From Medicago truncatula (Eukaryota > Streptophyta > Magnoliopsida > Fabales > Fabaceae): a stretch of DNA of 64,000 nt. Location: contig NC_053044.1 in assembly GCF_003473485.1 (NCBI RefSeq), positions 31,810,091 to 31,874,090 on the forward strand, written 5' to 3'. The translations under genes and the position numbers were made by a program. Below, piece by piece: positions 4,009-26,846 of the stretch (its first letter is position 1; every line of letters begins with the position of its first letter). Under the pieces are notes generated by a model, which was given only the letters and a program-made list of their open reading frames with translations, did no database searches and was not told where the DNA came from.

Positions 4009-5559
4009 CTTTTCATAAATTTGATTAAAACCTAAACCAGATTTGTCAAATTCTGCCATTTGTGAACCTACAATTTTTTGAAATGTTTCTGTTGATTTTA
4101 TAAATTGTGAAAGATCATTTCTAAGTTCTTTGACTTCCTTTTTAAGAATAATATTTTCATTTTTAGAATTTTCAGGAAGTTTTGTTTTTCCAAGAACTTT
4201 TAATTTTTCATTTACTTGAAAGTAAGAGTCTTGTAGACTTTGAATGATTTTCTTTTGATCATTATTCAAAGTTCGAAGTTTCTCTTTTTCTTCTTTTAAC
4301 TCAGAAATTTCTTTTTGTAAAGAGTGACATTTGTTTGTTAAAAAGTTTGAATCAAATAAAAGACTATCAAATTTATTTTCTAACTCTTTATATACTAGAG
4401 GTTGGTTAATAAGAATTACCTCTTCGCTTTCTGAATCTTCCATTAGAACCATGTTGGCTTCAGTGTCTTCATCTTTTGATTCTTCAAGATCATCCCAGGT
4501 AAACATTGATTTTGAGTAGGGAGATTTCTTCTGACTCTTTTTGTTCAATGGACATTCGTTTTTGTAATGTCCTAATTTGTTGCATCCAAAGCAAGTTACT
4601 TGACTTTTGTCAATTTCTCCTTTTGAGTTATCTTTCTTGTTGGGAAAGTATTTCTTTATTTGATCTCTTCTTCTCATCATTCTTTGAATCTTCTTTGTGA
4701 TGAGAGCTAGTTCGTCTTCTGCTTCCCCTTGGATGTTTTCTTCTTCATTGGCTTCTTCAGTTTCTTCGTTTTGTGGGAAGGCATCTTTTTGTTCACTTTG
4801 AGATGCTTTGAGAGCAACCATCTTTCATTTCCTTGATGGTTTATCATCTTGAAGTAACGTCTCATGAGCTTTTAATGATCCAATGAGATCTTCAAGAGCT
4901 AAGGAGTTTAAGTCTTTAGCTTGTGTGATTGCAGTTACCATGGGTCTCCATGTGCTTGGAAGACATCTTAAAATTTTTCTTATCCGATCATGAGTGGTAT
5001 AAGTTTTTCCCAGTGATCTTAATTCATTCACAATAGATGTGAATCTGGAGTACATTTCATCAATGTTCTCATCTTCGTTCATTTCGAAGATTTCAAATTT
5101 TCTTACGCCAATATCTATTCTTGTTTCTTTTACGTGGCTAGTTCCCTCATGATGAATTTTTAGAGTGTCCCAAACTTCTTTTGCAGTGACACATTCATCA
5201 ACTCTTTCACTTTCTTCCATGCTTAGTGCGCATGATAGAAAGAGTCGAGCTTTGGAGTTTAGAAGTACTTTTTCTTTATCTTCCTTTGACCATGATGCTT
5301 CTGGTGTGAGTGTATCCACCTTTGTTGTTGCATCAGTTGTCATAGGTATATGTTCTCCATTTGTGATTATTTTCCACATATCCACGTCTTGGGATCTGAG
5401 GAATAGTTTCATTTTTCCTTTCCAGAAATAATAGTTCTTTCCATTGAAGAATGGTGGTCTTGTGCATGATAGACCTTCTGGTATGTACTTTTCTTTTGAC
5501 ATTGCCTTCTTCCTGAATCTTTTCCTCCAACACTTGTTAGGTGTTTTTGTAGAGCCCGG

Positions 5560-5571
5560 GCTCTGATACCA
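5560..5571 (-). other. Primer-binding site of the copia fossil (initiator Met-tRNA type)
   Basis: The minus strand reads TGGTATCAGAGC, complementary to the 3' end of plant initiator methionine tRNA and the usual plant copia primer site. It sits between the gag start (5502) and the LTR, fixing element orientation as minus. The same site recurs at 13377-13388 and 21193-21204 in the duplicated segments. Confidence 0.85.
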
Positions 5572-6378
5572 ATTAAAGTAGCAATAAACGTCACAAGAAA
5601 GGGGGGTTTGAATTGTGACCCTTTTAAAAATTATTCCTGAAACTTAAGTTTAGATTTATATACTCAAGAATAATCTTGGTGTATGTTAGCTTAACAAGAT
5701 TAGAGTATATAACAATTAATTGAATTTAGAACAGAACATTCTGAAGACTGATTATAAACAGAATGAGAAAAATGATGTTAAGTTAAAAGATTATTTTAGC
5801 AAGGACCAGAATGTTCTGGAGATTAATAAAATAATGTGTGTGTGTGTTGTGTAACTTTAAATAAAGAGAGAGATAGAGATAGAGAGAGAGAGAGAGAGAG
5901 AAGAATAACACAGGAGAGTTATCCTGGTTCACCAAACCCGGCTACTTCCAGTCCCCACACCTCGTGTGAGATTATCCACTATAGTTTTCTTGCTAACAGA
6001 AACTTCTGACTAGCACTACAATATCTTGATCACACCAGATCAGTCCGTAACCTCTGTATTATCAACCTCAGCAGGCTTATACAATTCTTTGCACACTAGC
6101 AAAAGAAAGGTTGGAATTTTCTATCTCAAAACTATTAAGCCCAATAGACTTTGAGAAATACAACACTCTTTGTATGAAGAGATTTGTTTTGGATCGAATA
6201 AATACTCAAATCTTTGTTTGAGTTTTACAAGAGGCAAATTCAAGAGAGATGATCCAAGAGATATAGTGAGAGAGCTTGGAATTTGCTTTGTTTGTGAAGA
6301 GCTTTGTTTGTAGTGATGATTTTCACTTTGAGAGATATTAGCTTGCAAAACTCTTGCTTATGACCTTCAAAGGCCCTT

Positions 6379-6387
6379 GTATTTATA
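6379..6387 (-). promoter_or_regulatory. TATA box of copia LTR
   Basis: The minus strand reads TATAAATAC inside the LTR, with the presumed transcription start about 30 bases toward lower coordinates. It is repeated in the LTR copies near 14193 and 22009. Confidence 0.6.
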
Positions 6388-6492
6388 GGTGAGGAGTGTC
6401 TTGGTACCAAGGGAGAAAATAGAGCTGTTGGACACGTTTTTGATAGCTGTCCAAAGTCTCAATTGATTTCTCTTTTCTTCTTTAAAATAGCC

Positions 6493-6512
6493 AGAACGTT
6501 CTCAGAATGTTC
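6493..6512. promoter_or_regulatory. Heat-shock-element-like inverted repeats in copia LTR
   Basis: Two AGAAnnTTCT palindromes (AGAACGTTCT and AGAATGTTCT) sit almost back to back about 110 bases upstream, in element sense, of the LTR TATA box. Related motifs occur at 5733, 5808 and 6799 in the same LTR. GAA/TTC inverted units are what plant heat-shock factors bind, but spacing between the two palindromes is 3, not the ideal 2. Regulatory role is inferred. Confidence 0.4.
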
Positions 6513-6922
6513 TTTCTGATTTGCCTGACTTAGAAAGCACTGTTGCTTTGCTTGCGCATGAGATAACCAGCTGTGATGAGCTGTATAACTTGCAGCCCAC
6601 TTCTGATGATGTCATGTCCTTTTGCTCTAGTGATGTCATGCTTAAGTAAGCCATGTGATCTTATCCATTTAATGGGCTTTACTTTTTCAAATGGGCTTAA
6701 AGCTTTTCTTATGGCCCAATAGACATAATCAGCCAAGCTTTCTTGCTGTGCAGACTTGTTCGCTTTTGATGTACTGTTCCATTTTCATCGTTTTCGCCAG
6801 AACGTTCTCAATTCATTCTCATGAAACAAATTCTCACAAAAACGAATTAGTAGATAACAAGATTAAATAAATATAATATGTTTGTAATCTTTAAAACATC
6901 AAATAAGGATTTTGTCTCAACA

Positions 6923-7600
6923 ACTTTGTCCTCCGCACGATTTATTAGGAGCTTTGTCCTCCGCACGTTTAAAGTATATTAATACTTATGATGACGATTG
7001 GTACCACATGCATATAAGGAGTCTAAGAGCATTGTCGCATTGTCGTGTCTAAGATGCTATGTTGTTGATGATGATTGAATATGTGATTACGTGATAATTG
7101 TTTATCAAATATGCAAAGTTGTTTAAGATTGAATATGATGTTAATGTTAATTTATGATTCGAATTACATTGATTAATATTATTTTGTTATGAAATCTCAC
7201 CCCTTCTGCTTGAAAATGTTGCCCTTCGTATGGGTAACTTGCAGGTGATCGTGCTTAGTGTGCAGTTTGCCGTTGTGAGTGGCCTTGCCTCGCTGTGTCG
7301 TCTAGGTCGCTCTGATACGTAACGGGATGGGGTTTTATGTTATGCATGCTTCATTCTCTTACGTAACTAATATGTTATTTTTATAATATTATCAATTATG
7401 ATTTGAAATATTTTGATGGGGCCTGCGTGCCGAAACGTTTTATGGATTATGATATAATTTCCGCTGCAATGTTTAAGTTATTTGGTTAAATTATTATTTA
7501 ACTGTTTTGGATTATGTTATATGTGATATCCCGTTGTTTACGATGCTTACTCTGATAAATGTTTTAAGAAATTTTTATATTGGGAAAACGGAGTGTTACA
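6923..7600 (+). mobile_element. Ty3/gypsy LTR remnant, copy 1
   Basis: This stretch resembles the 3' part of a legume Ty3/gypsy LTR, with 'tttgtcctccgcacg' twice near its start and an ending 'ggagtgttaca' at 7600. The copia inserted into it at 6922, so the left part of this LTR is elsewhere or lost. No primer-binding site follows 7600, so it is an LTR end or solo LTR. Family assignment is from sequence style and is moderate. Confidence 0.6.
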
Positions 7601-8040
7601 GAAACTCCCCCTATAAATACCGCATTCCTCATTCACAATTTCTCATTCATAACGAAGTGGTTCAAGAGGAATGCAGTCACTATGCATCTAGGGAGGATTC
7701 TCTCTCTTCACTCCAAATTTTTCTAGAGTATTTTTATTTCTTTTATAATTTCTCTTTAGTTACCATGGGTAACTAAATCTTTTTAGGCTTGGGTTCTAAG
7801 ATTAACCTCTATTCTGGTTGTTGGATAATTTATGTAAAGTCTTTATTTTAGTTATTTATCTTTATGCTACTAGTTTTACTGTTGTTGCGTAAGATTTGTC
7901 TACTAAAGCATAATCTACTTAGAATAATTGAACGTGAGTTAACTGTTAATTAATTCCAACAAAATGAATAGAGATGATTCAAATTATGTTCAATATTTAA
8001 GCTAACTGTGTCCTCTATTTAAATTAATTGTTATATATTA
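7601..8040. other. Unassigned segment with TATA-like box
   Basis: No gene is recognised. A CTATAAATACC box lies at 7610-7621, followed by a pyrimidine-rich stretch and a short open frame that starts inside the LTR; this could be leader sequence of the neighbouring LTR element. It is repeated in all three segments (15415 and 23231 onward). Confidence 0.4.
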
Positions 8041-8560
8041 TAAACCTGATATAGCATAGCCTATATAGGGCTCACATGAAGCGATCACAATCGATAAAAC
8101 TATATTCTATAGCTAACGGTTGATCCTACAATACGCTCAATCAATGCAAAAATATGTTGTCACCTATTGGGTTCATATTTCTATAAATAACTTTGCCACG
8201 GCCAAACAGTATTATTTCTCTTTTGTGTTTTTTTCTTTTTATATCATGAAAGGTCAAAATAATGGATATTTGTTAAAATAAAATAGCATGAATCCTTATC
8301 ATTGATGAGTTTTTTATATGACCTCCTTACTAAGCATGATAAAGAAACAAATTGAACACATTGATGCATTTAAGAGATATTTAATAATTATTCTAATTTT
8401 AAAAAGTATCTATAATATACATAAAGAAAACTACCTCCTTTCAACACTTTTGGGTTGAATTTTTCTTTCTAAAAATGTCATCAATTTTCAATACAAATAA
8501 TACATATAATAAATAGACAAGAATAAATTTAAATATTAAAAAAACGTAACAAATACGATA

Positions 8561-8609
<49 letters not shown>

Positions 8610-8959
8610 TTTTTTTTTCTTTATCATTTAAAAAGTGTAACAAACTAAATGAGTATATTTATATTTAATTTTTTCCAATTACATCTTTAAACAACTTTTT
8701 CTATAATAAAGATTGTTGTTGGTGTTATTGAAATAAATAATCATGTTTAATTTGGTTTGTTATACCTAGAAAGCAACAAAAATTTATATTTTTAGTTTTA
8801 ATCAAAATCAAAATTTCATAAAAAAAAAATATAATTCATAATTTTCAAATTTTAACGCGGTAAAAAGAGTGAAAATACGGGCACGTAAGTGCCCATCTTT
8901 ACGCTAATTTTATAATTGCATAAGTGACTTTTTAGCTGATGAAACGATATCATAATCTT
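8041..8959 (+). promoter_or_regulatory. NCR upstream module, copy 1
   Basis: About 0.95 kb upstream of the NCR gene, shared with the diverged NCR genes. It contains a conserved block near 8058 ('gcctatatagggctcacatg'), a second block near 8315 ('tatgacctccttactaagc'), a (TA)n(TG)n microsatellite near 8565-8610 and a third block near 8870 ('ggtaaaaagagtgaaaatac'). Conservation between otherwise diverged paralogues suggests nodule-specific control, but no bound factor can be named from sequence. Confidence 0.55.
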
Positions 8960-8966
8960 TATAAAT
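8960..8966 (+). promoter_or_regulatory. TATA box of NCR gene, copy 1
   Basis: TATAAAT lies 50 bases before the chosen ATG. A start of transcription about 30 bases downstream would leave a leader of about 20 bases, so the in-frame ATG at 8992 would be almost at the cap; this favours the ATG at 9010. Same box at 16772 and 24587. Confidence 0.65.
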
Positions 8967-9009
8967 TGTAAAACCACATTCTATTTGTTATATGCAAAAG
9001 GCGAGAAAT

Positions 9010-9313
9010 ATGGCTAAACTTGTCAAGCTTGTTTATGTTATAATTGTGTTTTATACCCTATTTCTTGTTGCAACGGAAATTGTTTGTGAGCTAATTTTTC
9101 ATACTCTTGAAATTTCCTTTTATTTCTTTTTATCTCGTTTTAGTAACATTATTTTGTTCTTTTTCCTTCAATACAGCGGGTATTCCTTGTAACGATGATG
9201 TTGATTGTCCACAGACTCTGTGTGAACAGTTAATTGCCGACTTCAAGTATATGATAGATTTTAAGTCGGAGTGTGTTTCCCGTATGTGTGCATGTACCGG
9301 AAGTCCCGTTTAA
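9010..9313 (+). CDS. Nodule-specific cysteine-rich (NCR) peptide, tandem copy 1
   Basis: Two exons, 9010-9085 and 9177-9313, with a 91-base GT/AG intron in the usual NCR position just after the signal peptide; the product is 70 residues. Residues 1-25 (MAKLVKLVYV...) are the late-nodulin signal peptide (PF07127 type). The mature part has six cysteines spaced C-X5-C-X4-C-X16-C-X4-C-X1-C and is acidic (about -4). NCR peptides enter the secretory pathway of infected nodule cells and act on rhizobia in the symbiosome. An in-frame upstream ATG at 8992 would add six residues; the later ATG fits the family. The X16 loop is long for the family. Encoded peptide identical in copies 2 and 3. Confidence 0.9.
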
Positions 9314-9855
9314 GCTGCACTGGTGGTTGGTTTTGGTTCAAAATGGAACAATGAAAAATACCTTTAATATTGGGTTGCTTATATATTTTCACCATAGATG
9401 TGGAAATCATAATAGGCTATTAATAAAATTATAAATTATACATGTGGCCTTTAAATATCTTTTCTACGTACCCTTGTTATTAATTAATTACTAAAATCAA
9501 AAGAAATTTCCTTCTCAATTACATGTCGTTGAGTTTTCCACCTAGATATGTGTTGTATTTTTTATCTTATTAAAATAACATAAAATCTTATTTACTCTCA
9601 ATCAAAATCAATCTAGAATATAAGGGTGTCTCTATGTACTTCTCTAGGTGTGTGTTTAATTGTTTTTTTTGTTGCATATATGCAAATATCAAGTCATAAA
9701 AACATGTTTTACCTTAATAAACACAACCAGGTGTTACTAAAAAATATAATCATAAAAACCTATAATGAAATATAGATATACAAATCAAGGATAGAGGGAA
9801 AAGAAATATCTTCAAATAATAGATGGAAAATAGTGTTTTATTTCTTTCTTCATTA
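9314..9855 (+). other. 3' flank of NCR copy 1
   Basis: No gene. AT-rich 3' flank, partly shared with the diverged NCR gene at 29900 ('gtggaaatcataata' near 9401 and 30229), so it is part of the ancestral NCR duplication unit. It ends abruptly at plastid DNA. Confidence 0.6.
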
Positions 9856-9939
9856 CGAGAACTACGATCTTTGGCTCTGGAACTGAATCATTTCCTTGTA
9901 TCTGAGAAAGACTTCCAGATTCAAAGGAAGGAAGTTTAA
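9856..9939 (+). pseudogene. rpoB: Plastid rpoB 3' end, nuclear copy 1
   Basis: Twenty-seven codons plus a TAA stop read as the C terminus of the plastid RNA polymerase beta subunit ([18 protein letters not shown]...). It lies directly upstream of rpoC1, as in plastid genomes. The left end is the plastid/nuclear join after 'cttcatta'. Only the tail of the gene is present, so it has no function here. Confidence 0.92.
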
Positions 9940-9965
9940 TTGGACTGAATCAGAAATTTTATTCT

Positions 9966-12810
9966 ATGATTGATCAGTATAAACATCAACACCTTCGAAT
10001 TGGATCAGTTTCTCCTGAACAAATAAGTGCTTGGGCAAAAAAAATCCTACCTAATGGAGAAATTGTTGGAGAGGTAACAAAACCCTATACTCTTCATTAC
10101 AAAACCAATAAGCCTGAAAAAGATGGATTATTTTGTGAACGAATTTTTGGGCCTATAAAAAGTGGGATTTGTGCTTGTGGAAATTATCGAGTAATCGGAG
10201 ATAAAAAAGACCAACCCAAATTTTGTGAACAATGCGGAGTAGAATTTGTTGATTCTCGGGTACGTAGGTATCAAATGGGGTATATAAAACTAGCATGTCC
10301 AGTAACCCATGTATGGTATTTGAAACGTCTTCCTAGTTATATTGCGAGCCTTTTAGATAAACCTCTTAAAGAATTAGAAGGTCTAGTATACTGCGATGTG
10401 TGATTTGATAAAAATTCTTATTGTACAGATTTCAAATGAGAAACTGTCATTCCATTCAATTAAATTGGAATGTCCTCTATCTGGCATGTCTCTTGGGATG
10501 AGTAACATGAAGCTCAGAATTCATGGGTGTATTGAATACTCCCAAATCAATAAGGGAATTGGTCTATGGTCAATTCAGTAACAAATAAATATTTATTTAT
10601 AACCGTACGTACCTTGTGAAAAAAAAAAAATTATTTTTTTGTGGAATTAATTATTTCATCTCTTTTTTTTTTAAGAACTTAAATTAAGTTCAAAGAATAA
10701 AATATAATATATCATGATTGCCGAAGTCTATCTATCGCATATAGGCTTAAAGACATCGTGGCATAACCGTCGAGGTGACGTCTTGACCTAAAAGATCAAA
10801 TGGTATGATACATAGACAAAGAAATCTCTTATGAATTCGAGGATATTCCTTTTTTTATTAAAAAGTATATTTTAAAGGATTCTTCGTTCGAAGGGAGGTA
10901 GACTACTCAAGAATTTTACATTGAATTTCTGTCGTAATTTCGAATTGCATAAAGAATTCAGAAACAAAGAAGAATGTATCAATGAAATGTTGCTTCGTCT
11001 GTATTGATAACTTGAGTAAAGAGTAAACCTTTTTTATTTTAGATTTAGAGGTTTTCAAAAATTTGAAAACGGAAACCACTTTCTTTATCTTTATTGTGTG
11101 TAAATACTTTAGCCGGATGAGAGGAAACCCTCACGTCCGATTTTCAAAGGGGGAGATCCATCTTATTGGATCCTATCCAAATTTTTCGTTTGCTAGGCCC
11201 GTAGTTAAAAAACCTACTTTCTTACGATTACGAGGTTCATTCGAATACGAAATCCAATCTTGGAAATACAGTATCCCACTCTTTTTTGCTACTCAAGGTT
11301 TCGATACATTTCGAAATAGAGAAATTTCTAGTGGAGCAGGTGCTATACGAGAACAATTAGTTGATTTGGATTTAAGAATTATTATGGATTCTTCGTTGGT
11401 AGAATGGAAAGAATTAGGAGAAGAGGGATCCGCCGACAATGAAAATGAAAATGAATGGGAAGATCGAAAAGTAGGAAGAAGAAAGAATTTTTTGGTTCGA
11501 CGCATGGAATTAGTTAAGCACTTTATCCGAACAAATATAGAACCAGAATGGATGGTTTTATCTCTCTTACCAGTTCTTCCTCCCGAATTGAGACCAATTA
11601 TTCAAATAGATGGAGGGAAACTAATGAGTTCGGATATTAATGAACTCTATAGAAGAGTTATCTATCGGAACAATACTCTTATTGACCTATTAACAACAAG
11701 TAGATCTACACCAGGGGAATTAGTAATGTGTCAAGAAAAATTGGTACAAGAAGCCGTGGATACACTCCTTGATAATGGAATCCGCGGACAACCAATGAGG
11801 GACGGTCATAATAAAGTTTACAAATCGTTTTCAGATATAATTGAGGGCAAAGAGGGAAGATTTCGAGAGACTCTGCTTGGAAAACGAGTTGATTATTCGG
11901 GGCGTTCTGTTATTGTCGTAGGTCCATCACTTTCATTACATCGATGTGGATTGCCCCGCGAAATAGCAATAGAGCTATTTCAGACATTTCTAATTCGTGG
12001 TTTAATTCGAAAACATTTTGCTTCGAACATAGGAGTTGCTAAGAGTAAAATACGGGAAAAAGAACCGATTGTATGGGAAATACTTCAAGAAGTTATGCGG
12101 GGGCATCCAGTATTGCTGAATAGAGCGCCTACTTTGCATAGATTGGGCATACAGGCATTTCAACCTATTTTAGTAGAAGGACGTGCTATTTGTTTACATC
12201 CATTAGTGTGTAAGGGATTCAATGCAGACTTTGATGGGGATCAAATGGCTGTTCATGTGCCTTTATCTTTGGAGGCTCAAGCAGAAGCTCGTTTACTTAT
12301 GTTTTCTCATACAAACCTCTTGTCTCCGGCTATTGGGGATCCCATTTCCGTACCAACTCAAGATATGCTTATAGGACTTTACGTATTAACTAGCGGAAAT
12401 CGTCGAGGTATTTGTGCAAACAGGTATAATCCGTTTAATTGCCGAAATTCTAAAAATGAAAAAATTAGCAATAATAACTCTAAGTATATGAAAAAAAAGA
12501 ACCCTTTTTTTGCAATTCCTATGATGCAATTGGAGCTTATCGACAGAAAAGAATAAATTTAGATAGTCCTTTTTGGCTCCGGTGGCGAATAGATCAATGC
12601 ATTATGTCTTCAAGAGAAGTTCCTATCGAAGTTCACTATGAATCTTTTGGTACCTATTATGAAATTTATGGGCATTATTTAGTAATAAGAAGTATAAAAA
12701 AAGAAATTCGTTGTATATACATTAGAACCACTGTTGGTCATATTTCTTTTTATCGAGAAATTGAAGAAGCTATACAAGGTTTTTCTCGAGCCTATTCATA
12801 TGGTATCTAA
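9966..12810 (+). pseudogene. rpoC1: Plastid rpoC1 (RNA polymerase beta' subunit), nuclear copy 1
   Basis: Exon 1 is 9966-10397 (144 codons, ending YCD) and exon 2 is 11183-12810, separated by an unspliced plastid group II intron. The N-terminal zinc-binding cysteines (C-X-C, then C-X2-C) and the catalytic NADFDGD loop at about residues 491-497 are unchanged, so transfer is recent. One base is missing from an A-run (8 A at 12491-12498, 9 A in copy 2), which shifts the last quarter of exon 2. Retention of intron and neighbours shows DNA-level transfer. With no nuclear promoter or transit peptide, and with a group II intron, it should not make the plastid subunit. Confidence 0.95.
10398..11182 (+). 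other. rpoC1 group II intron, nuclear copy 1
   Basis: The 785-base intron starts GTGTG and ends AT, as plastid group II introns do. A domain-V-like hairpin (AGCCGGATGAG...GAAA...CTCACGTCCGAT) lies at about 11112-11146, near the 3' end where it belongs. It carries no maturase. In nuclear RNA this intron is not expected to splice. Confidence 0.85.
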
Positions 12811-12997
12811 TCATATAGATGGTTAGTGTTGATATCCAAGCTAGGTAAATTTATGTTATGATACTGGCGTAAATTCAGGTCAACTAGCATCTTTTCTATT
12901 TTCTACGTGAATAAACATAAAGAAAAGGAAGTTTTCCAATCATTCACTCAAATTCATTGTCGAACCGAATCCCACTGAGTGGAATATGGAGGTACTT
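12811..12997 (+). other. Plastid rpoC1-rpoC2 spacer, nuclear copy 1
   Basis: Short AT-rich spacer between the rpoC1 stop and the rpoC2 start, in the order found in plastid genomes. Repeated at 20627-20813. Confidence 0.85.
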
Positions 12998-13027
12998 ATG
13001 GCAGAACGGGCCAATCTAGTCTTTCAC
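12998..13027 (+). pseudogene. rpoC2: First 10 codons of plastid rpoC2 and duplication join, copy 1
   Basis: The reading MAERANLVFH is the start of plastid rpoC2 (beta'' subunit). The last bases, TCTTTCAC (13020-13027), are also present in the copia gag at 5203-5210, and copia sequence continues from there. The join therefore lies in an 8-base microhomology. Confidence 0.9.
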
Positions 13028-14736
13028 TTTCTTCCATGCTTAGTGCGCATGATAGAAAGAGTCGAGCTTTGGAGTTTAGAAGTACTTTTTCTTTATCTTC
13101 CTTTGACCATGATGCTTCTGGTGTGAGTGTATCCACCTTTGTTGTTGCATCAGTTGTCATAGGTATATGTTCTCCATTTGTGATTATTTTCCACATATCC
13201 ACGTCTTGGGATCTGAGGAATAGTTTCATTTTTCCTTTCCAGAAATAATAGTTCTTTCCATTGAAGAATGGTGGTCTTGTGCATGATAGACCTTCTGGTA
13301 TGTACTTTTCTTTTGACATTGCCTTCTTCCTGAATCTTTTCCTCCAACACTTGTTAGGTGTTTTTGTAGAGCCCGGGCTCTGATACCAATTAAAGTAGCA
13401 ATAAACGTCACAAGAAAGGGGGGGTTTGAATTGTGACCCTTTTAAAAATTATTCCTGAAACTTAAGTTTAGATTTATATACTCAAGAATAATCTTGGTGT
13501 ATGTTAGCTTAACAAGATTAGAGTATATAACAATTAATTGAATTTAGAACAGAACATTCTGAAGACTGATTATAAACAGAATGAGAAAAATGATGTTAAG
13601 TTAAAAGATTATTTTAGCAAGGACCAGAATGTTCTGGAGATTAATAAAATAATGTGTGTGTGTGTTGTGTAACTTTAAATAAAGAGAGAGATAGAGATAG
13701 AGAGAGAGAGAGAGAAGAATAACACAGGAGAGTTATCCTGGTTCACCAAACCCGGCTACTTCCAGTCCCCACACCTCGTGTGAGATTATCCACTATAGTT
13801 TTCTTGCTAACAGAAACTTCTGACTAGCACTACAATATCTTGATCACACCAGATCAGTCCGTAACCTCTGTATTATCAACCTCAGCAGGCTTATACAATT
13901 CTTTGCACACTAGCAAAAGAAAGGTTGGAATTTTCTATCTCAAAACTATTAAGCCCAATAGACTTTGAGAAATACAACACTCTTTGTATGAAGAGATTTG
14001 TTTTGGATCGAATAAATACTCAAATCTTTGTTTGAGTTTTACAAGAGGCAAATTCAAGAGAGATGATCCAAGAGATATAGTGAGAGAGCTTGGAATTTGC
14101 TTTGTTTGTGAAGAGCTTTGTTTGTAGTGATGATTTTCACTTTGAGAGATATTAGCTTGCAAAACTCTTGCTTATGACCTTCAAAGGCCCTTGTATTTAT
14201 AGGTGAGGAGTGTCTTGGTACCAAGGGAGAAAATAGAGCTGTTGGACACGTTTTTGATAGCTGTCCAAAGTCTCAATTGATTTCTCTTTTCTTCTTTAAA
14301 ATAGCCAGAACGTTCTCAGAATGTTCTTTCTGATTTGCCTGACTTAGAAAGCACTGTTGCTTTGCTTGCGCATGAGATAACCAGCTGTGATGAGCTGTAT
14401 AACTTGCAGCCCACTTCTGATGATGTCATGTCCTTTTGCTCTAGTGATGTCATGCTTAAGTAAGCCATGTGATCTTATCCATTTAATGGGCTTTACTTTT
14501 TCAAATGGGCTTAAAGCTTTTCTTATGGCCCAATAGACATAATCAGCCAAGCTTTCTTGCTGTGCAGACTTGTTCGCTTTTGATGTACTGTTCCATTTTC
14601 ATCGTTTTCGCCAGAACGTTCTCAATTCATTCTCATGAAACAAATTCTCACAAAAACGAATTAGTAGATAACAAGATTAAATAAATATAATATGTTTGTA
14701 ATCTTTAAAACATCAAATAAGGATTTTGTCTCAACA
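13021..14736 (-). mobile_element. Copia fossil fragment, copy 2: gag start, primer site, LTR
   Basis: Minus-strand copy of the gag start (ATG at 13319), the primer-binding site (13377-13388) and the LTR ending at 14736. It begins at the plastid join. It arrived as part of the segmental duplication, not by its own transposition. Confidence 0.85.
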
Positions 14737-15414
14737 ACTTTGTCCTCCGCACGATTTATTAGGAGCTTTGTCCTCCGCACGTTTAAAGTATATTAATACT
14801 TATGATGACGATTGGTACCACATGCATATAAGGAGTCTAAGAGCATTGTCGCATTGTCGTGTCTAAGATGCTATGTTGTTGATGATGATTGAATATGTGA
14901 TTACGTGATAATTGTTTATCAAATATGCAAAGTTGTTTAAGATTGAATATGATGTTAATGTTAATTTATGATTCGAATTACATTGATTAATATTATTTTG
15001 TTATGAAATCTCACCCCTTCTGCTTGAAAATGTTGCCCTTCGTATGGGTAACTTGCAGGTGATCGTGCTTAGTGTGCAGTTTGCCGTTGTGAGTGGCCTT
15101 GCCTCGCTGTGTCGTCTAGGTCGCTCTGATACGTAACGGGATGGGGTTTTATGTTATGCATGCTTCATTCTCTTACGTAACTAATATGTTATTTTTATAA
15201 TATTATCAATTATGATTTGAAATATTTTGATGGGGCCTGCGTGCCGAAACGTTTTATGGATTATGATATAATTTCCGCTGCAATGTTTAAGTTATTTGGT
15301 TAAATTATTATTTAACTGTTTTGGATTATGTTATATGTGATATCCCGTTGTTTACGATGCTTACTCTGATAAATGTTTTAAGAAATTTTTATATTGGGAA
15401 AACGGAGTGTTACA
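14737..15414 (+). mobile_element. Ty3/gypsy LTR remnant, copy 2
   Basis: Same sequence as the remnant at 6923-7600, ending 'ggagtgttaca'. Carried along in segment 2. Confidence 0.6.
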
Positions 15415-16374
15415 GAAACTCCCCCTATAAATACCGCATTCCTCATTCACAATTTCTCATTCATAACGAAGTGGTTCAAGAGGAATGCAGTCACTATGCA
15501 TCTAGGGAGGATTCTCTCTCTTCACTCCAAATTTTTCTAGAGTATTTTTATTTCTTTTATAATTTCTCTTTAGTTACCATGGGTAACTAAATCTTTTTAG
15601 GCTTGGGTTCTAAGATTAACCTCTATTCTGGTTGTTGGATAATTTATGTAAAGTCTTTATTTTAGTTATTTATCTTTATGCTACTAGTTTTACTGTTGTT
15701 GCGTAAGATTTGTCTACTAAAGCATAATCTACTTAGAATAATTGAACGTGAGTTAACTGTTAATTAATTCCAACAAAATGAATAGAGATGATTCAAATTA
15801 TGTTCAATATTTAAGCTAACTGTGTCCTCTATTTAAATTAATTGTTATATATTATAAACCTGATATAGCATAGCCTATATAGGGCTCACATGAAGCGATC
15901 ACAATCGATAAAACTATATTCTATAGCTAACGGTTGATCCTACAATACGCTCAATCAATGCAAAAATATGTTGTCACCTATTGGGTTCATATTTCTATAA
16001 ATAACTTTGCCACGGCCAAACAGTATTATTTCTCTTTTGTGTTTTTTTCTTTTTATATCATGAAAGGTCAAAATAATGGATATTTGTTAAAATAAAATAG
16101 CATGAATCCTTATCATTGATGAGTTTTTTATATGACCTCCTTACTAAGCATGATAAAGAAACAAATTGAACACATTGATGCATTTAAGAGATATTTAATA
16201 ATTATTCTAATTTTAAAAAGTATCTATAATATACATAAAGAAAACTACCTCCTTTCAACACTTTTGGGTTGAATTTTTCTTTCTAAAAATGTCATCAATT
16301 TTCAATACAAATAATACATATAATAAATAGACAAGAATAAATTTAAATATTAAAAAAACGTAACAAATACGATA

Positions 16375-16419
<45 letters not shown>

Positions 16420-16771
16420 TTTTTTTTTCTTTATCATTTAAAAAGTGTAACAAACTAAATGAGTATATTTATATTTAATTTTTTCCAATTACATCTTTAA
16501 ACAACTTTTTCTATAATAAAGATTGTTGTTGGTGTTATTGAAATAAATAATCATGTTTAATTTGGTTTGTTATACCTAGAAAGCAACAAAAATTTATATT
16601 TTTAGTTTTAATCAAAATCAAAATTTCATAAAAAAAAAAATATAATTCATAATTTTCAAATTTTAACGCGGTAAAAAGAGTGAAAATACGGGCACGTAAG
16701 TGCCCATCTTTACGCTAATTTTTATAATTGCATAAGTGACTTTTTAGCTGATGAAACGATATCATAATCTT
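15415..16771 (+). promoter_or_regulatory. NCR upstream region, copy 2
   Basis: Matches 7601-8959, including the conserved upstream blocks and the (TA)n(TG)n tract (about 16378-16420), whose length differs from copy 1. A TATAAAT box follows at 16772-16778. Confidence 0.55.
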
Positions 16772-16821
16772 TATAAATTGTAAAACCACATTCTATTTGT
16801 TATATGCAAAAGGCGAGAAAT

Positions 16822-17125
16822 ATGGCTAAACTTGTCAAGCTTGTTTATGTTATAATTGTGTTTTATACCCTATTTCTTGTTGCAACGGAAATTGTTTGTG
16901 AGCTAATTTTTCATACTCTTGAAATTTCCTTTTATTTCTTTTTATCTCGTTTTAGTAACATTATTTTGTTCTTTTTCCTTCAATACAGCGGGTATTCCTT
17001 GTAACGATGATGTTGATTGTCCACAGACTCTGTGTGAACAGTTAATTGCCGACTTCAAGTATATGATAGATTTTAAGTCGGAGTGTGTTTCCCGTATGTG
17101 TGCATGTACCGGAAGTCCCGTTTAA
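16822..17125 (+). CDS. NCR peptide, tandem copy 2
   Basis: Exons 16822-16897 and 16989-17125 with a 91-base intron; the 70-residue product is identical to copy 1, with a 25-residue late-nodulin signal peptide and six cysteines (C-X5-C-X4-C-X16-C-X4-C-X1-C). TATA box, leader length and 3' flank are also the same, so this copy should be expressed like copy 1 if the shared upstream region holds the promoter. Plastid DNA begins 545 bases past the stop codon. Confidence 0.9.
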
Positions 17126-17669
17126 GCTGCACTGGTGGTTGGTTTTGGTTCAAAATGGAACAATGAAAAATACCTTTAATATTGGGTTGCTTATATATTT
17201 TCACCATAGATGTGGAAATCATAATAGGCTATTAATAAAATTATAAATTATACATGTGGCCTTTAAATATCTTTTCTACGTACCCTTGTTATTAATTAAT
17301 TACTAAAATCAAAAGAAATTTCCTTCTCAATTACATGTCGTTGAGTTTTCCACCTAGATATGTGTTGTATTTTTTTATCTTATTAAAATAACATAAAATC
17401 TTATTTACTCTCAATCAAAATCAATCTAGAATATAAGGGTGTCTCTATGTACTTCTCTAGGTGTGTGTTTAATTGTTTTTTTTGTTGCATATATGCAAAT
17501 ATCAAGTCATAAAAACATGTTTTACCTTAATAAACACAACCAGGTGTTACTAAAAAAATATAATCATAAAAACCTATAATGAAATATAGATATACAAATC
17601 AAGGATAGAGGGAAAAGAAATATCTTCAAATAATAGATGGAAAATAGTGTTTTATTTCTTTCTTCATTA
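17126..17669 (+). other. 3' flank of NCR copy 2
   Basis: No gene; same AT-rich flank as 9314-9855, with a few one-base homopolymer differences. Confidence 0.6.
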
Positions 17670-17753
17670 CGAGAACTACGATCTTTGGCTCTGGAACTGA
17701 ATCATTTCCTTGTATCTGAGAAAGACTTCCAGATTCAAAGGAAGGAAGTTTAA
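17670..17753 (+). pseudogene. rpoB: Plastid rpoB 3' end, nuclear copy 2
   Basis: Same 27 codons and stop as at 9856-9939, joined to nuclear DNA at the same base, showing both plastid pieces descend from one capture event. Confidence 0.92.
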
Positions 17754-17779
17754 TTGGACTGAATCAGAAATTTTATTCT

Positions 17780-20626
17780 ATGATTGATCAGTATAAACAT
17801 CAACACCTTCGAATTGGATCAGTTTCTCCTGAACAAATAAGTGCTTGGGCAAAAAAAATCCTACCTAATGGAGAAATTGTTGGAGAGGTAACAAAACCCT
17901 ATACTCTTCATTACAAAACCAATAAGCCTGAAAAAGATGGATTATTTTGTGAACGAATTTTTGGGCCTATAAAAAGTGGGATTTGTGCTTGTGGAAATTA
18001 TCGAGTAATCGGAGATAAAAAAGACCAACCCAAATTTTGTGAACAATGCGGAGTAGAATTTGTTGATTCTCGGGTACGTAGGTATCAAATGGGGTATATA
18101 AAACTAGCATGTCCAGTAACCCATGTATGGTATTTGAAACGTCTTCCTAGTTATATTGCGAGCCTTTTAGATAAACCTCTTAAAGAATTAGAAGGTCTAG
18201 TATACTGCGATGTGTGATTTGATAAAAATTCTTATTGTACAGATTTCAAATGAGAAACTGTCATTCCATTCAATTAAATTGGAATGTCCTCTATCTGGCA
18301 TGTCTCTTGGGATGAGTAACATGAAGCTCAGAATTCATGGGTGTATTGAATACTCCCAAATCAATAAGGGAATTGGTCTATGGTCAATTCAGTAACAAAT
18401 AAATATTTATTTATAACCGTACGTACCTTGTGAAAAAAAAAAAATTATTTTTTTGTGGAATTAATTATTTCATCTCTTTTTTTTTTAAGAACTTAAATTA
18501 AGTTCAAAGAATAAAATATAATATATCATGATTGCCGAAGTCTATCTATCGCATATAGGCTTAAAGACATCGTGGCATAACCGTCGAGGTGACGTCTTGA
18601 CCTAAAAGATCAAATGGTATGATACATAGACAAAGAAATCTCTTATGAATTCGAGGATATTCCTTTTTTTTATTAAAAAGTATATTTTAAAGGATTCTTC
18701 GTTCGAAGGGAGGTAGACTACTCAAGAATTTTACATTGAATTTCTGTCGTAATTTCGAATTGCATAAAGAATTCAGAAACAAAGAAGAATGTATCAATGA
18801 AATGTTGCTTCGTCTGTATTGATAACTTGAGTAAAGAGTAAACCTTTTTTATTTTAGATTTAGAGGTTTTCAAAAATTTGAAAACGGAAACCACTTTCTT
18901 TATCTTTATTGTGTGTAAATACTTTAGCCGGATGAGAGGAAACCCTCACGTCCGATTTTCAAAGGGGGAGATCCATCTTATTGGATCCTATCCAAATTTT
19001 TCGTTTGCTAGGCCCGTAGTTAAAAAACCTACTTTCTTACGATTACGAGGTTCATTCGAATACGAAATCCAATCTTGGAAATACAGTATCCCACTCTTTT
19101 TTGCTACTCAAGGTTTCGATACATTTCGAAATAGAGAAATTTCTAGTGGAGCAGGTGCTATACGAGAACAATTAGTTGATTTGGATTTAAGAATTATTAT
19201 GGATTCTTCGTTGGTAGAATGGAAAGAATTAGGAGAAGAGGGATCCGCCGACAATGAAAATGAAAATGAATGGGAAGATCGAAAAGTAGGAAGAAGAAAG
19301 AATTTTTTGGTTCGACGCATGGAATTAGTTAAGCACTTTATCCGAACAAATATAGAACCAGAATGGATGGTTTTATCTCTCTTACCAGTTCTTCCTCCCG
19401 AATTGAGACCAATTATTCAAATAGATGGAGGGAAACTAATGAGTTCGGATATTAATGAACTCTATAGAAGAGTTATCTATCGGAACAATACTCTTATTGA
19501 CCTATTAACAACAAGTAGATCTACACCAGGGGAATTAGTAATGTGTCAAGAAAAATTGGTACAAGAAGCCGTGGATACACTCCTTGATAATGGAATCCGC
19601 GGACAACCAATGAGGGACGGTCATAATAAAGTTTACAAATCGTTTTCAGATATAATTGAGGGCAAAGAGGGAAGATTTCGAGAGACTCTGCTTGGAAAAC
19701 GAGTTGATTATTCGGGGCGTTCTGTTATTGTCGTAGGTCCATCACTTTCATTACATCGATGTGGATTGCCCCGCGAAATAGCAATAGAGCTATTTCAGAC
19801 ATTTCTAATTCGTGGTTTAATTCGAAAACATTTTGCTTCGAACATAGGAGTTGCTAAGAGTAAAATACGGGAAAAAGAACCGATTGTATGGGAAATACTT
19901 CAAGAAGTTATGCGGGGGCATCCAGTATTGCTGAATAGAGCGCCTACTTTGCATAGATTGGGCATACAGGCATTTCAACCTATTTTAGTAGAAGGACGTG
20001 CTATTTGTTTACATCCATTAGTGTGTAAGGGATTCAATGCAGACTTTGATGGGGATCAAATGGCTGTTCATGTGCCTTTATCTTTGGAGGCTCAAGCAGA
20101 AGCTCGTTTACTTATGTTTTCTCATACAAACCTCTTGTCTCCGGCTATTGGGGATCCCATTTCCGTACCAACTCAAGATATGCTTATAGGACTTTACGTA
20201 TTAACTAGCGGAAATCGTCGAGGTATTTGTGCAAACAGGTATAATCCGTTTAATTGCCGAAATTCTAAAAATGAAAAAATTAGCAATAATAACTCTAAGT
20301 ATATGAAAAAAAAAGAACCCTTTTTTTGCAATTCCTATGATGCAATTGGAGCTTATCGACAGAAAAGAATAAATTTAGATAGTCCTTTTTGGCTCCGGTG
20401 GCGAATAGATCAATGCATTATGTCTTCAAGAGAAGTTCCTATCGAAGTTCACTATGAATCTTTTGGTACCTATTATGAAATTTATGGGCATTATTTAGTA
20501 ATAAGAAGTATAAAAAAAGAAATTCGTTGTATATACATTAGAACCACTGTTGGTCATATTTCTTTTTATCGAGAAATTGAAGAAGCTATACAAGGTTTTT
20601 CTCGAGCCTATTCATATGGTATCTAA
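17780..20626 (+). pseudogene. rpoC1: Plastid rpoC1, nuclear copy 2, coding sequence intact
   Basis: Exon 1 is 17780-18211 and exon 2 is 18998-20626, together 686 codons plus stop, the normal plastid rpoC1 length, with no disruption. The NADFDGD catalytic loop, the zinc-binding cysteines and the normal C terminus (FSRAYSYGI) are all present. An open frame runs from inside the intron (18878) through exon 2, but that is only the exon with chance upstream codons. It is still listed as a pseudogene because nuclear rpoC1 lacks plastid transcription, group II splicing and a transit peptide. Intactness indicates very recent transfer. Confidence 0.95.
18212..18997 (+). other. rpoC1 group II intron, nuclear copy 2
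   Basis: 786 bases, GTGTG...AT ends, one base longer than copy 1 in a homopolymer. Domain-V-like hairpin near 18927-18961. Confidence 0.85.
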
Positions 20627-20813
20627 TCATATAGATGGTTAGTGTTGATATCCAAGCTAGGTAAATTTATGTTATGATACTGGCGTAAATTCAGGTCAAC
20701 TAGCATCTTTTCTATTTTCTACGTGAATAAACATAAAGAAAAGGAAGTTTTCCAATCATTCACTCAAATTCATTGTCGAACCGAATCCCACTGAGTGGAA
20801 TATGGAGGTACTT

Positions 20814-20843
20814 ATGGCAGAACGGGCCAATCTAGTCTTTCAC
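20814..20843 (+). pseudogene. rpoC2: First 10 codons of plastid rpoC2 and duplication join, copy 2
   Basis: Identical to 12998-13027, with the same join in TCTTTCAC into copia gag. Two identical joins mean the second arose by copying the first. Confidence 0.9.
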
Positions 20844-22552
20844 TTTCTTCCATGCTTAGTGCGCATGATAGAAAGAGTCGAGCTTTGGAGTTTAGAAGTA
20901 CTTTTTCTTTATCTTCCTTTGACCATGATGCTTCTGGTGTGAGTGTATCCACCTTTGTTGTTGCATCAGTTGTCATAGGTATATGTTCTCCATTTGTGAT
21001 TATTTTCCACATATCCACGTCTTGGGATCTGAGGAATAGTTTCATTTTTCCTTTCCAGAAATAATAGTTCTTTCCATTGAAGAATGGTGGTCTTGTGCAT
21101 GATAGACCTTCTGGTATGTACTTTTCTTTTGACATTGCCTTCTTCCTGAATCTTTTCCTCCAACACTTGTTAGGTGTTTTTGTAGAGCCCGGGCTCTGAT
21201 ACCAATTAAAGTAGCAATAAACGTCACAAGAAAGGGGGGGTTTGAATTGTGACCCTTTTAAAAATTATTCCTGAAACTTAAGTTTAGATTTATATACTCA
21301 AGAATAATCTTGGTGTATGTTAGCTTAACAAGATTAGAGTATATAACAATTAATTGAATTTAGAACAGAACATTCTGAAGACTGATTATAAACAGAATGA
21401 GAAAAATGATGTTAAGTTAAAAGATTATTTTAGCAAGGACCAGAATGTTCTGGAGATTAATAAAATAATGTGTGTGTGTGTTGTGTAACTTTAAATAAAG
21501 AGAGAGATAGAGATAGAGAGAGAGAGAGAGAAGAATAACACAGGAGAGTTATCCTGGTTCACCAAACCCGGCTACTTCCAGTCCCCACACCTCGTGTGAG
21601 ATTATCCACTATAGTTTTCTTGCTAACAGAAACTTCTGACTAGCACTACAATATCTTGATCACACCAGATCAGTCCGTAACCTCTGTATTATCAACCTCA
21701 GCAGGCTTATACAATTCTTTGCACACTAGCAAAAGAAAGGTTGGAATTTTCTATCTCAAAACTATTAAGCCCAATAGACTTTGAGAAATACAACACTCTT
21801 TGTATGAAGAGATTTGTTTTGGATCGAATAAATACTCAAATCTTTGTTTGAGTTTTACAAGAGGCAAATTCAAGAGAGATGATCCAAGAGATATAGTGAG
21901 AGAGCTTGGAATTTGCTTTGTTTGTGAAGAGCTTTGTTTGTAGTGATGATTTTCACTTTGAGAGATATTAGCTTGCAAAACTCTTGCTTATGACCTTCAA
22001 AGGCCCTTGTATTTATAGGTGAGGAGTGTCTTGGTACCAAGGGAGAAAATAGAGCTGTTGGACACGTTTTTGATAGCTGTCCAAAGTCTCAATTGATTTC
22101 TCTTTTCTTCTTTAAAATAGCCAGAACGTTCTCAGAATGTTCTTTCTGATTTGCCTGACTTAGAAAGCACTGTTGCTTTGCTTGCGCATGAGATAACCAG
22201 CTGTGATGAGCTGTATAACTTGCAGCCCACTTCTGATGATGTCATGTCCTTTTGCTCTAGTGATGTCATGCTTAAGTAAGCCATGTGATCTTATCCATTT
22301 AATGGGCTTTACTTTTTCAAATGGGCTTAAAGCTTTTCTTATGGCCCAATAGACATAATCAGCCAAGCTTTCTTGCTGTGCAGACTTGTTCGCTTTTGAT
22401 GTACTGTTCCATTTTCATCGTTTTCGCCAGAACGTTCTCAATTCATTCTCATGAAACAAATTCTCACAAAAACGAATTAGTAGATAACAAGATTAAATAA
22501 ATATAATATGTTTGTAATCTTTAAAACATCAAATAAGGATTTTGTCTCAACA
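20837..22552 (-). mobile_element. Copia fossil fragment, copy 3: gag start, primer site, LTR
   Basis: Same content as 13021-14736: gag start (ATG at 21135), primer-binding site 21193-21204, LTR to 22552. Part of the duplicated segment. Confidence 0.85.
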
Positions 22553-23230
22553 ACTTTGTCCTCCGCACGATTTATTAGGAGCTTTGTCCTCCGCACGTTT
22601 AAAGTATATTAATACTTATGATGACGATTGGTACCACATGCATATAAGGAGTCTAAGAGCATTGTCGCATTGTCGTGTCTAAGATGCTATGTTGTTGATG
22701 ATGATTGAATATGTGATTACGTGATAATTGTTTATCAAATATGCAAAGTTGTTTAAGATTGAATATGATGTTAATGTTAATTTATGATTCGAATTACATT
22801 GATTAATATTATTTTGTTATGAAATCTCACCCCTTCTGCTTGAAAATGTTGCCCTTCGTATGGGTAACTTGCAGGTGATCGTGCTTAGTGTGCAGTTTGC
22901 CGTTGTGAGTGGCCTTGCCTCGCTGTGTCGTCTAGGTCGCTCTGATACGTAACGGGATGGGGTTTTATGTTATGCATGCTTCATTCTCTTACGTAACTAA
23001 TATGTTATTTTTATAATATTATCAATTATGATTTGAAATATTTTGATGGGGCCTGCGTGCCGAAACGTTTTATGGATTATGATATAATTTCCGCTGCAAT
23101 GTTTAAGTTATTTGGTTAAATTATTATTTAACTGTTTTGGATTATGTTATATGTGATATCCCGTTGTTTACGATGCTTACTCTGATAAATGTTTTAAGAA
23201 ATTTTTATATTGGGAAAACGGAGTGTTACA
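22553..23230 (+). mobile_element. Ty3/gypsy LTR remnant, copy 3
   Basis: Same as 6923-7600; carried along in segment 3. Confidence 0.6.
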
Positions 23231-24190
23231 GAAACTCCCCCTATAAATACCGCATTCCTCATTCACAATTTCTCATTCATAACGAAGTGGTTCAAGAGGA
23301 ATGCAGTCACTATGCATCTAGGGAGGATTCTCTCTCTTCACTCCAAATTTTTCTAGAGTATTTTTATTTCTTTTATAATTTCTCTTTAGTTACCATGGGT
23401 AACTAAATCTTTTTAGGCTTGGGTTCTAAGATTAACCTCTATTCTGGTTGTTGGATAATTTATGTAAAGTCTTTATTTTAGTTATTTATCTTTATGCTAC
23501 TAGTTTTACTGTTGTTGCGTAAGATTTGTCTACTAAAGCATAATCTACTTAGAATAATTGAACGTGAGTTAACTGTTAATTAATTCCAACAAAATGAATA
23601 GAGATGATTCAAATTATGTTCAATATTTAAGCTAACTGTGTCCTCTATTTAAATTAATTGTTATATATTATAAACCTGATATAGCATAGCCTATATAGGG
23701 CTCACATGAAGCGATCACAATCGATAAAACTATATTCTATAGCTAACGGTTGATCCTACAATACGCTCAATCAATGCAAAAATATGTTGTCACCTATTGG
23801 GTTCATATTTCTATAAATAACTTTGCCACGGCCAAACAGTATTATTTCTCTTTTGTGTTTTTTTCTTTTTATATCATGAAAGGTCAAAATAATGGATATT
23901 TGTTAAAATAAAATAGCATGAATCCTTATCATTGATGAGTTTTTTATATGACCTCCTTACTAAGCATGATAAAGAAACAAATTGAACACATTGATGCATT
24001 TAAGAGATATTTAATAATTATTCTAATTTTAAAAAGTATCTATAATATACATAAAGAAAACTACCTCCTTTCAACACTTTTGGGTTGAATTTTTCTTTCT
24101 AAAAATGTCATCAATTTTCAATACAAATAATACATATAATAAATAGACAAGAATAAATTTAAATATTAAAAAAACGTAACAAATACGATA

Positions 24191-24235
<45 letters not shown>

Positions 24236-24586
24236 TTTTTTTTTCTTTATCATTTAAAAAGTGTAACAAACTAAATGAGTATATTTATATTTAATTTTTT
24301 CCAATTACATCTTTAAACAACTTTTTCTATAATAAAGATTGTTGTTGGTGTTATTGAAATAAATAATCATGTTTAATTTGGTTTGTTATACCTAGAAAGC
24401 AACAAAAATTTATATTTTTAGTTTTAATCAAAATCAAAATTTCATAAAAAAAAAATATAATTCATAATTTTCAAATTTTAACGCGGTAAAAAGAGTGAAA
24501 ATACGGGCACGTAAGTGCCCATCTTTACGCTAATTTTTATAATTGCATAAGTGACTTTTTAGCTGATGAAACGATATCATAATCTT
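23231..24586 (+). promoter_or_regulatory. NCR upstream region, copy 3
   Basis: Matches 7601-8959 with a different (TA)n(TG)n length; TATAAAT follows at 24587-24593. Confidence 0.55.
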
Positions 24587-24636
24587 TATAAATTGTAAAA
24601 CCACATTCTATTTGTTATATGCAAAAGGCGAGAAAT

Positions 24637-24940
24637 ATGGCTAAACTTGTCAAGCTTGTTTATGTTATAATTGTGTTTTATACCCTATTTCTTGTTGCAA
24701 CGGAAATTGTTTGTGAGCTAATTTTTCATACTCTTGAAATTTCCTTTTATTTCTTTTTATCTCGTTTTAGTAACATTATTTTGTTCTTTTTCCTTCAATA
24801 CAGCGGGTATTCCTTGTAACGATGATGTTGATTGTCCACAGACTCTGTGTGAACAGTTAATTGCCGACTTCAAGTATATGATAGATTTTAAGTCGGAGTG
24901 TGTTTCCCGTATGTGTGCATGTACCGGAAGTCCCGTTTAA
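24637..24940 (+). CDS. NCR peptide, tandem copy 3
   Basis: Exons 24637-24712 and 24804-24940; same 70-residue anionic six-cysteine NCR precursor as copies 1 and 2. This is the only one of the three followed by native nuclear DNA rather than plastid DNA, so it probably keeps the original 3' context. The three together give triple dosage of one peptide. Confidence 0.9.
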
Positions 24941-25699
24941 GCTGCACTGGTGGTTGGTTTTGGTTCAAAATGGAACAATGAAAAATACCTTTAATATTGG
25001 GTTGCTTATATATTTTCACCATAGATGTGGAAATCATAATAGGCTATTAATAAAATTATAAATTATACATGTGGCCTTTAAATATCTTTTCTACGTACCC
25101 TTGTTATTAATTAATTACTAAAATCAAAAGAAATTTCCTTCTCAATTACATGTCGTTGAGTTTTCCACCTAGATATGTGTTGTATTTTTTTATCTTATTA
25201 AAATAACATAAAATCTTATTTACTCTCAATCAAAATCAATCTAGAATATAAGGGTGTCTCTATGTACTTCTCTAGGTGTGTGTTTAATTGTTTTTTTTGT
25301 TGCATATATGCAAATATCAAGTCATAAAAACATGTTTTACCTTAATAAACACAACCAGGTGTTACTAAAAAAATATAATCATAAAAACCTATAATGAAAT
25401 ATAGATATACAAATCAAGGATAGAGGGAAAAGAAATATCTTCAAATAATAGATGGAAAATAGTGTTTTATTTCTTTCTTCATTAGGAGATTTTCTAAGCT
25501 AATAGGGTAATTAAAATCTTAAATTTAATCATGCACATTTAAACAAGATGTGTGAAGATGAATTTGCTTCAATCAATTAGAAAGAAAAACAAAGAAGCAA
25601 TGAAAGTTGGGTTTAATTTTACCTAAGATATTATGATATGCATACATAAACATTTTTTACCTACGATATTATGATATGCATACATAAACAAATTTTTTT
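24941..25699. other. 3' flank of NCR copy 3 and native right flank
   Basis: No gene. Shared flank to 25484, then unique AT-rich DNA. A 38-base direct repeat (25622-25652 and 25660-25690, 'attatgatatgcatacataa' core) lies just before the next transposon. Confidence 0.6.
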
Positions 25700-26522
25700 G
25701 GCAAAATTACATTAATAGTGTCCCTTAACTTAATTTTAGGTAACGTTTTGGTCCTTTATCTTATTTTTTTAATCCTTTATCTTTTTAAATGTTAACACTA
25801 TTATCCCTTTTCTACAAAAACCCAACAAATTCATAACAAAAATAAGTTGTTCATCAATAAACCTATATTTTCATCAACAAATACCAAAAACCCAGATATT
25901 TATAAAAATTCCAGAGAGAAAAAAATGCATTCAACTTCAGTTTTTGTTTCACATAAACGTACTGATTATCAAAATTAACAAAAGATATGAATAAGTGTTC
26001 TGAGGGTAGGTGCATTTAGCACACAAAACCAACACTCCAAAACCATTAAGCATTCAAAACCCAAAAGCAATAATAAGCTCCAGGTTTGTAATTCAGAACT
26101 CTCTCTTTCACAAAGGCAAAGTGGCAGTAAGGCAAATTGACAGTAAGGGTTTGAGTTTATTTAATTGAGAGAAGTGGGTTGATAGATGGTGGTGATGTTG
26201 TTGGGGAAGAGCTGAATTGGTGTAGGTTGTATAAGAGGTTGGAAATGTGATTCATTTTCAGCATGAAATGATGATAGAGCGCACAAATATGATATAGGAA
26301 AACAGAAATGGTGAAGGGGATTTTATGAAGATATGTATTTCTGGGTTTTATTATGATGAAGATATGAGTTTTTTGTTATGAATTTGCTGGGTTTTTGTAG
26401 AAAAAGGATAATATTGTTAACATTTAAAAAGATAAAGGATTGAAATGGGAAGAAAAAAAATAAGATAAAGGACCAAAACATTACCTAAAATTAAGTTAAG
26501 AAATTATTAGTGTAATTTTGCC
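25700..26522. mobile_element. Non-autonomous DNA transposon with ~145-bp terminal inverted repeats (Mutator-like)
   Basis: Both ends start GGCAAAATTAC and the two termini match as inverted repeats for roughly 145 bases ('ggtcctttatcttatttttt' and its complement). The flanks carry an 8-base direct repeat, ATTTTTTT; a 9-base one cannot be excluded in this T-run. Long inverted repeats and a GG..AATTAC terminus suggest a Mutator-like element. The inside has no transposase. Confidence 0.75.
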
Positions 26523-26846
26523 ATTTTTTTACATAAGATTAATTTTCATATACTATTAGGACTCGTTTAATTGGTTATGATAAGAGATAGATAAGATAAT
26601 TGTACCATATTCGACCTTAATTCAATGTTTGATGAGACAACAACATAATTAATTCTAAGATTCTTTTCCCACAACATGTAAGACAAGATATAATAGTTTT
26701 ATTCTCCCAATGTACATTAAAACCCTTATGTGAGGCTTAAGAGAGATACAAGTAAATGTTGAGAAAGTGTCTCAATCAGGGGTGAAGTTATAAGGGAGAC
26801 CAGCATAGACCATAACCCCCTTCAAACTATTTTCTATTTTTTTAAT
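26523..26846. other. Intergenic, nothing recognised
   Basis: AT-rich unique sequence between a transposon and an RNase H-like relic; I see no gene or repeat here. Confidence 0.5.

Follow-up and report, generated by a model that had tools for sequence, protein, structure and literature searches.

What is plastid DNA doing at a nuclear locus where it lies only between the copies of a duplicated symbiosis gene? Nuclear organelle DNA is usually regarded as passive insertion, so an older insertion could have been carried along by a later duplication; alternatively, the plastid fragment could have entered as filler while the duplication itself was being made. The question arises in a window of 64,000 nucleotides of Medicago truncatula (the whole stretch of DNA that was analysed, C3:31810091-31874090 of a 430 Mb genome in 42 contigs), which contains zero Ns. 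Here a segment of ~4.65 kb carrying an NCR gene (S) alternates with a plastid fragment of ~3.16 kb (P) in the order S1-P1-S2-P2-S3, all head to tail (Table 1), an array structure and copy number that are read from one assembly of one accession.

A sequence-only reading of the window had described a 4.65-kb segment present three times with a plastid fragment present twice between the copies, and self-BLAST of the window together with copy alignment bears this out: 5197-17674 matches 13014-25489 over 12,485 bp at 99.85% identity, and 5197-9860 matches 20830-25489 over 4,668 bp at 99.68%. The base at which the third S was said to run into native DNA, 25484, is exact in the copy alignment; the start of the array, given as 5204, had to be moved by one base to 5203. 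Elsewhere in the genome, among the best 40 of 6654 candidates, the three array copies are the only full-length matches to S and the next-best matches end at S position 1727 or earlier, while full-length matches to P, among the best 40 of 182 candidates, comprise P1, P2 and one larger plastid insertion on C4, with C42 covered in part.

Table 1. Features of the array and of its edges. Positions are those of the window; X and Y stand for the native DNA to the left and right of the array.
Feature	Position	Strand	Length	Content
S copy 1	5203-9855	+	4653 bp	first part of gag, PBS, LTR, then NCR gene with flanks
P1	9856-13019	+		plastid rpoB 3' end, rpoC1 (two exons and intron), rpoC2 start
S copy 2	13020-17669	+	4650 bp	NCR gene at 16822
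P2	17670-20835	+		plastid fragment again; reading frame of rpoC1 exon 2 open up to the stop
S copy 3	20836-25484	+	4649 bp	NCR gene at 24637
copia gag reading frame	4846-5502	-		crosses the native X-S join 5202/5203
copia LTR in S1	5573-6923	-		partner LTR at C3:31799740-31801082
NCR gene copy 1	9010-9313	+		two exons, predicted 70 aa, six cysteines
Microhomology TCTTTCAC	13020-13027	+	8 bp	P1-S2 join; also at 20836-20843 and at native 5203-5210
Stretch over the S3/Y edge	25250-25596	+		unbroken counterpart at C3:31755779-31756136

The gene in S is NCR-like by its predicted product. With the exons joined by eye at GT/AG, it combines a signal-peptide exon, a late nodulin/NCR domain (Pfam Nodulin_late, PF07127, E 1.2e-13) and the conserved cysteines, six in number, and the predicted protein is identical in all three S copies. 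NCR genes are numerous and clustered, with a variability above that of a reference family and below that of NBS-LRR genes, according to the accessible part of PMC5369179. Older NCR-like paralogs lie in the window at 29900 and at 32582-33076, about 85-91% identical over parts to the S gene, and the predicted protein of the paralog at 29900 has seven cysteines.

The plastid fragment starts in the last codons of rpoB, spans rpoC1 with its intron and stops within the opening codons of rpoC2. Compared with the PDB, the rpoC1 exon of P hits RNA polymerase beta'/gamma subunits with E values as low as 8e-266. P is 98.6% identical to the plastid contig L001, which had been placed wrongly in a bacterial MAG, and P2 equals the plastid-like contig of the same assembly (C42) with zero mismatches over the 1,605 bp compared. 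Being plastid-derived and joined to nuclear DNA on both sides, it is a NUPT. L001 and L002 are both plant plastid contigs, which the bacterial genome collection lists under MAGs of Clostridia and Lactobacillus.

The state of the locus before the duplication can be read at the two outer edges of the array. On the left, S begins within a minus-strand copia gag and continues through the primer-binding region and the LTR to the NCR gene. The gag domain (Pfam Retrotran_gag_2, E 8.4e-30, residues 40-215) spans the left edge of S1, and all 5 of the 5 copia family members examined align unbroken to window 4500-6000 at 95-98%. The element is a copia LTR retrotransposon with two LTRs, the gag domain and a target-site duplication: the LTR pair is 98.67% identical with 6 mismatches, S2 and S3 show the same mismatch count to the partner, and the outside flanks, GCTTT and ACTTT, agree at 4 of 5 target-site bases. 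Judged by this continuity, the left outer flank of S1 is the original state. The LTR pair (C3:31799740-31817013) is spaced 17.3 kb apart, compared with ~10-11 kb in two other family pairs, and the local element may therefore hold a nested insertion.

On the right, the NCR paralogs inside the window were tried as a test of the edge and rejected, as their homology stops at ~25255, short of 25484, so that the paralog near C3:31755779 is needed. This paralog, 54 kb upstream of the window, aligns over 358 bp at 92% identity with 17 mismatches and runs straight through 25484 without plastid DNA. By comparison with it, the right outer flank S3-Y is likewise the original state. Continuity of gag and LTR on the left and of the paralog on the right gives X-S-Y as the ancestral order, with P at the new joins only: it lies at every new join and at neither outer edge of the array. 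That the plastid piece is filler at new joins, and not an older insertion duplicated later, had been proposed from the sequence alone, and the independent outgroups at both outer edges support it. Two further repeats of the window may be recorded here, a MITE-like pair of inverted repeat arms (25699-26523) that begins a short way to the right of the array, the arms being ~150 bp long, 87% alike and separated by 0.5 kb, and a tandem array with periods of about 226 and 24 bp at 49454-50092.

The edges are young, so the joins can be read base by base. Both types, S to P and P to S, are seen twice, each time at the identical base. At the P-to-S join, the 8 bp TCTTTCAC are common to plastid DNA (L001 and the C4 copy) and to native nuclear DNA. 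The S-to-P join is blunt: the plastid (C42, L001) has GCTCGTT before CGAGAAC, the join has CATTA before CGAGAAC, and the number of shared bases is 0. When plastid and window positions were paired at random 400,000 times, 8 or more bases were shared by chance at a rate of 3.4e-4 per random join. A blunt join together with an 8-bp one fits both sister-chromatid end joining and template switching.

Alignment of the S and P copies yields nine indel events and zero substitutions, and mismatches are confined to the outer edges, where native flank faces plastid. Six of the indels set copy 1 apart from the other two S copies (single bases: G once, T twice, A once; repeats: AG and AT), an additional A is present in copy 2 at 16630, and P1 is without one T (10849) and one A (12490) that P2 has. 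These last two are homopolymer deletions, and most of the between-copy indels sit in homopolymers; the deletion at 12490 shifts the rpoC1 frame of P1, and the frame of P2 stays open. Polarised by outgroup, the indels at 5600, 9557, 9738, 10849 and 12490 are all losses in unit 1 (5/5). In a four-way alignment at 12490 the shorter form appears in the distant plastid L002, and the form of P2 is shared by L001 and the C4 copy; the indel at 8907 is ambiguous in the outgroup comparison. The single-base losses of unit 1 may be consensus errors of the assembly, because the C4 plastid copy shows ~17 single-base gaps and no mismatches against P over 3.17 kb. A simple error in copy 2 is a poor fit at 16630, where the paralog has the length of copy 2 and not that of copies 1 and 3. 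Copies 2 and 3 were considered as sisters, given that copy 1 is odd at six indels, and this was rejected: three polarisable single-base indels arose in copy 1, and as changes of its own they do not group the other two.

The array event is recent, to judge from the equality of P2 and C42 and from the zero substitutions between copies. At a substitution rate of 7e-9 per site per generation, and assuming a star tree, zero substitutions in three S and two P set a 95% upper bound of ~21,000 generations, with the proviso that gene conversion after the event would lower the apparent age of the array. The mismatches between its LTRs show the retrotransposon to predate the array.

How would such an array come about? 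Most probably, plastid DNA was captured in a single repair or template-switch event that also made the tandem duplication, and the S-P unit then expanded. The starting point would be a single-copy X-S-Y locus with one NCR gene, at which repair or replication went wrong. Via the 3.16-kb plastid fragment, S would have been linked from its right end, which is 25484 today, to the left end of the S carried by the sister chromatid or by a homologous one, S joining P without homology and P joining S through the 8-bp microhomology, and this one event, which may have been polymerase-theta-like end joining or template switching, would have produced X-S-P-S-Y. Having identical S copies, the unit could then have grown to three S and two P via unequal exchange or further copying; we infer this expansion, as we do any effect on NCR dosage. 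Zero substitutions between the copies are consistent with filler and duplication having arisen together. The sequence-only reading had specified break repair through a captured fragment, which agrees with the pattern of N copies and N-1 fillers, but end joining, template switching and a circle of S and P all predict that pattern. Its further proposal, later unequal crossing-over, holds as a possible route of expansion, although no marker orders the three copies. The plastid DNA may have been a cause of the amplification or may merely have been caught up in it.

A more specific replicative account is possible, if on the doubtful side: a fork or a break-induced replication tract could have left the end of S, copied nuclear-resident plastid DNA and returned to the start of S by the 8-bp homology. 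As donors of P, the C42 plastid and the C4 insertion show zero distinguishing substitutions. Less likely again is that S and P were joined as an extrachromosomal circle that went back into the chromosome in one or two rounds of homologous recombination within S. A circle, too, predicts N copies with N-1 fillers and copies that are identical, S does contain LTR-retrotransposon sequence, and the portion of PMC10462705 available reports TE-derived circles in Arabidopsis; however, the array bears no circle-specific trace, the edges of S differ from the LTR edges, and in the same portion of that paper large tandem duplications in Arabidopsis are not associated with circles.

Could the array be a product of the assembly, with a wrong number of S-P units or plastid DNA misplaced between nuclear segments? 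This is improbable, marginally more so than the circle. The between-copy differences are all indels, mostly in homopolymers, the five polarisable single-base ones being deletions in unit 1, and C4 carries two 3.5-kb plastid stretches, 100% identical to C42, that lie 124,019 bp apart, about one plastome length. Given these stretches and the ~17 homopolymer deletions in the C4 copy, individual plastid pieces of the assembly may be misplaced. Yet in the array two joins recur at the same base, one of them with 8-bp microhomology, two microsatellites distinguish copy 1 from the other two copies, and there are no Ns. As for C4 itself, the long plastid-DNA region there (C4:12556500-12569000, 12581169-12584668 and 12705188-12708686; L013, L014, L040, L041) may be a giant tandem NUPT or insertion, or misassembled plastid sequence.

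It is very unlikely that P was inserted first beside a single S, that S-P was then duplicated and that the third copy later lost P. NUPT insertion followed by duplication is described in the accessible text of PMC7037861 and PMC2820518, but S3 meets Y at the exact base where P begins in copies 1 and 2, so the loss must have been base-precise, and the paralog shows S-Y to be the original sequence. Just as remote is a plain S-S tandem duplication into whose join plastid DNA was inserted later by chance, since, fragile as joins can be and frequent as plastid insertion is in this genome, it requires a hit at one position in ~9.3 kb, and the array retains no S-S join without P.

Capture of plastid DNA during duplication, the favoured account, does not appear to be the usual outcome in this genome: right-flank searches at two plastid insertions (L007 and L044) found no second local copy at either. 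The lack of microhomology at the S-to-P join likewise counts against that account. A survey of 12 plastid loci with 1,500-bp flanks detected no direct repeat and is uninformative, as the array itself is negative at 1,500 bp and positive at 4,700 bp. At L007 (C3:18418499-18420798) a 1.3-kb plastid insertion of 98% identity has a right flank that matches C41 at 98-100%; C41 is probably mitochondrial, which would make this locus a mosaic organelle insertion.

At the array, then, where the plastid DNA sits is bound up with the origin of a gene duplication. Should bridging of this kind happen repeatedly, organelle DNA would actively supply tandem copies to gene clusters that evolve fast, those of NCR genes being one example. 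Accessions that have a single S and lack P, should there be any, would make the locus a natural test of organelle-fragment capture during a rise in symbiosis-gene copy number.

In kind, plastid DNA at a duplication join is already known (PMC8348815). A search of the open-access literature, with subscription papers outside its scope, for tandem-duplication joins that hold plastid DNA, or for such DNA in an NCR duplication, found the Arabidopsis line GK-909H04 as the nearest case: the part of PMC8348815 available describes an inverted duplication of 20 kb whose fusion point holds 652 bp of plastome sequence, validated by PCR amplicon. At both loci, plastid DNA lies where a newly duplicated piece of chromosome is fused. 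That case, however, is 652 bp, inverted and T-DNA mutagenised, whereas the present one is 3.16 kb, direct tandem, natural and in three copies. As far as the searches show, it is new for such a case to be natural, direct and amplified, to involve a symbiosis gene and to have its two ancestral edges identified. The blunt and microhomology joins resemble those of organelle DNA integrated in break repair, for which the accessible sections of PMC7037861 and PMC6215612 give 1-7 bp of microhomology or blunt ends; such integration fills one site, whereas here it is a single 4.65-kb segment whose two ends are joined. Rice patch-mediated duplications (Vaughn and Bennetzen 2014, as relayed in part by PMC7407515) also combine duplication and insertion from break repair, with insertions of 10-1000 bp, compared with 4.65 kb duplicated around a 3.16-kb filler. 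The papaya rps15 NUPT and the cat numt, as far as the accessible text of PMC7037861 and PMC2820518 describes them, are similar in having several nuclear copies of organelle DNA; they were copied after insertion, whereas here the organelle piece is missing at both outer edges of the array.
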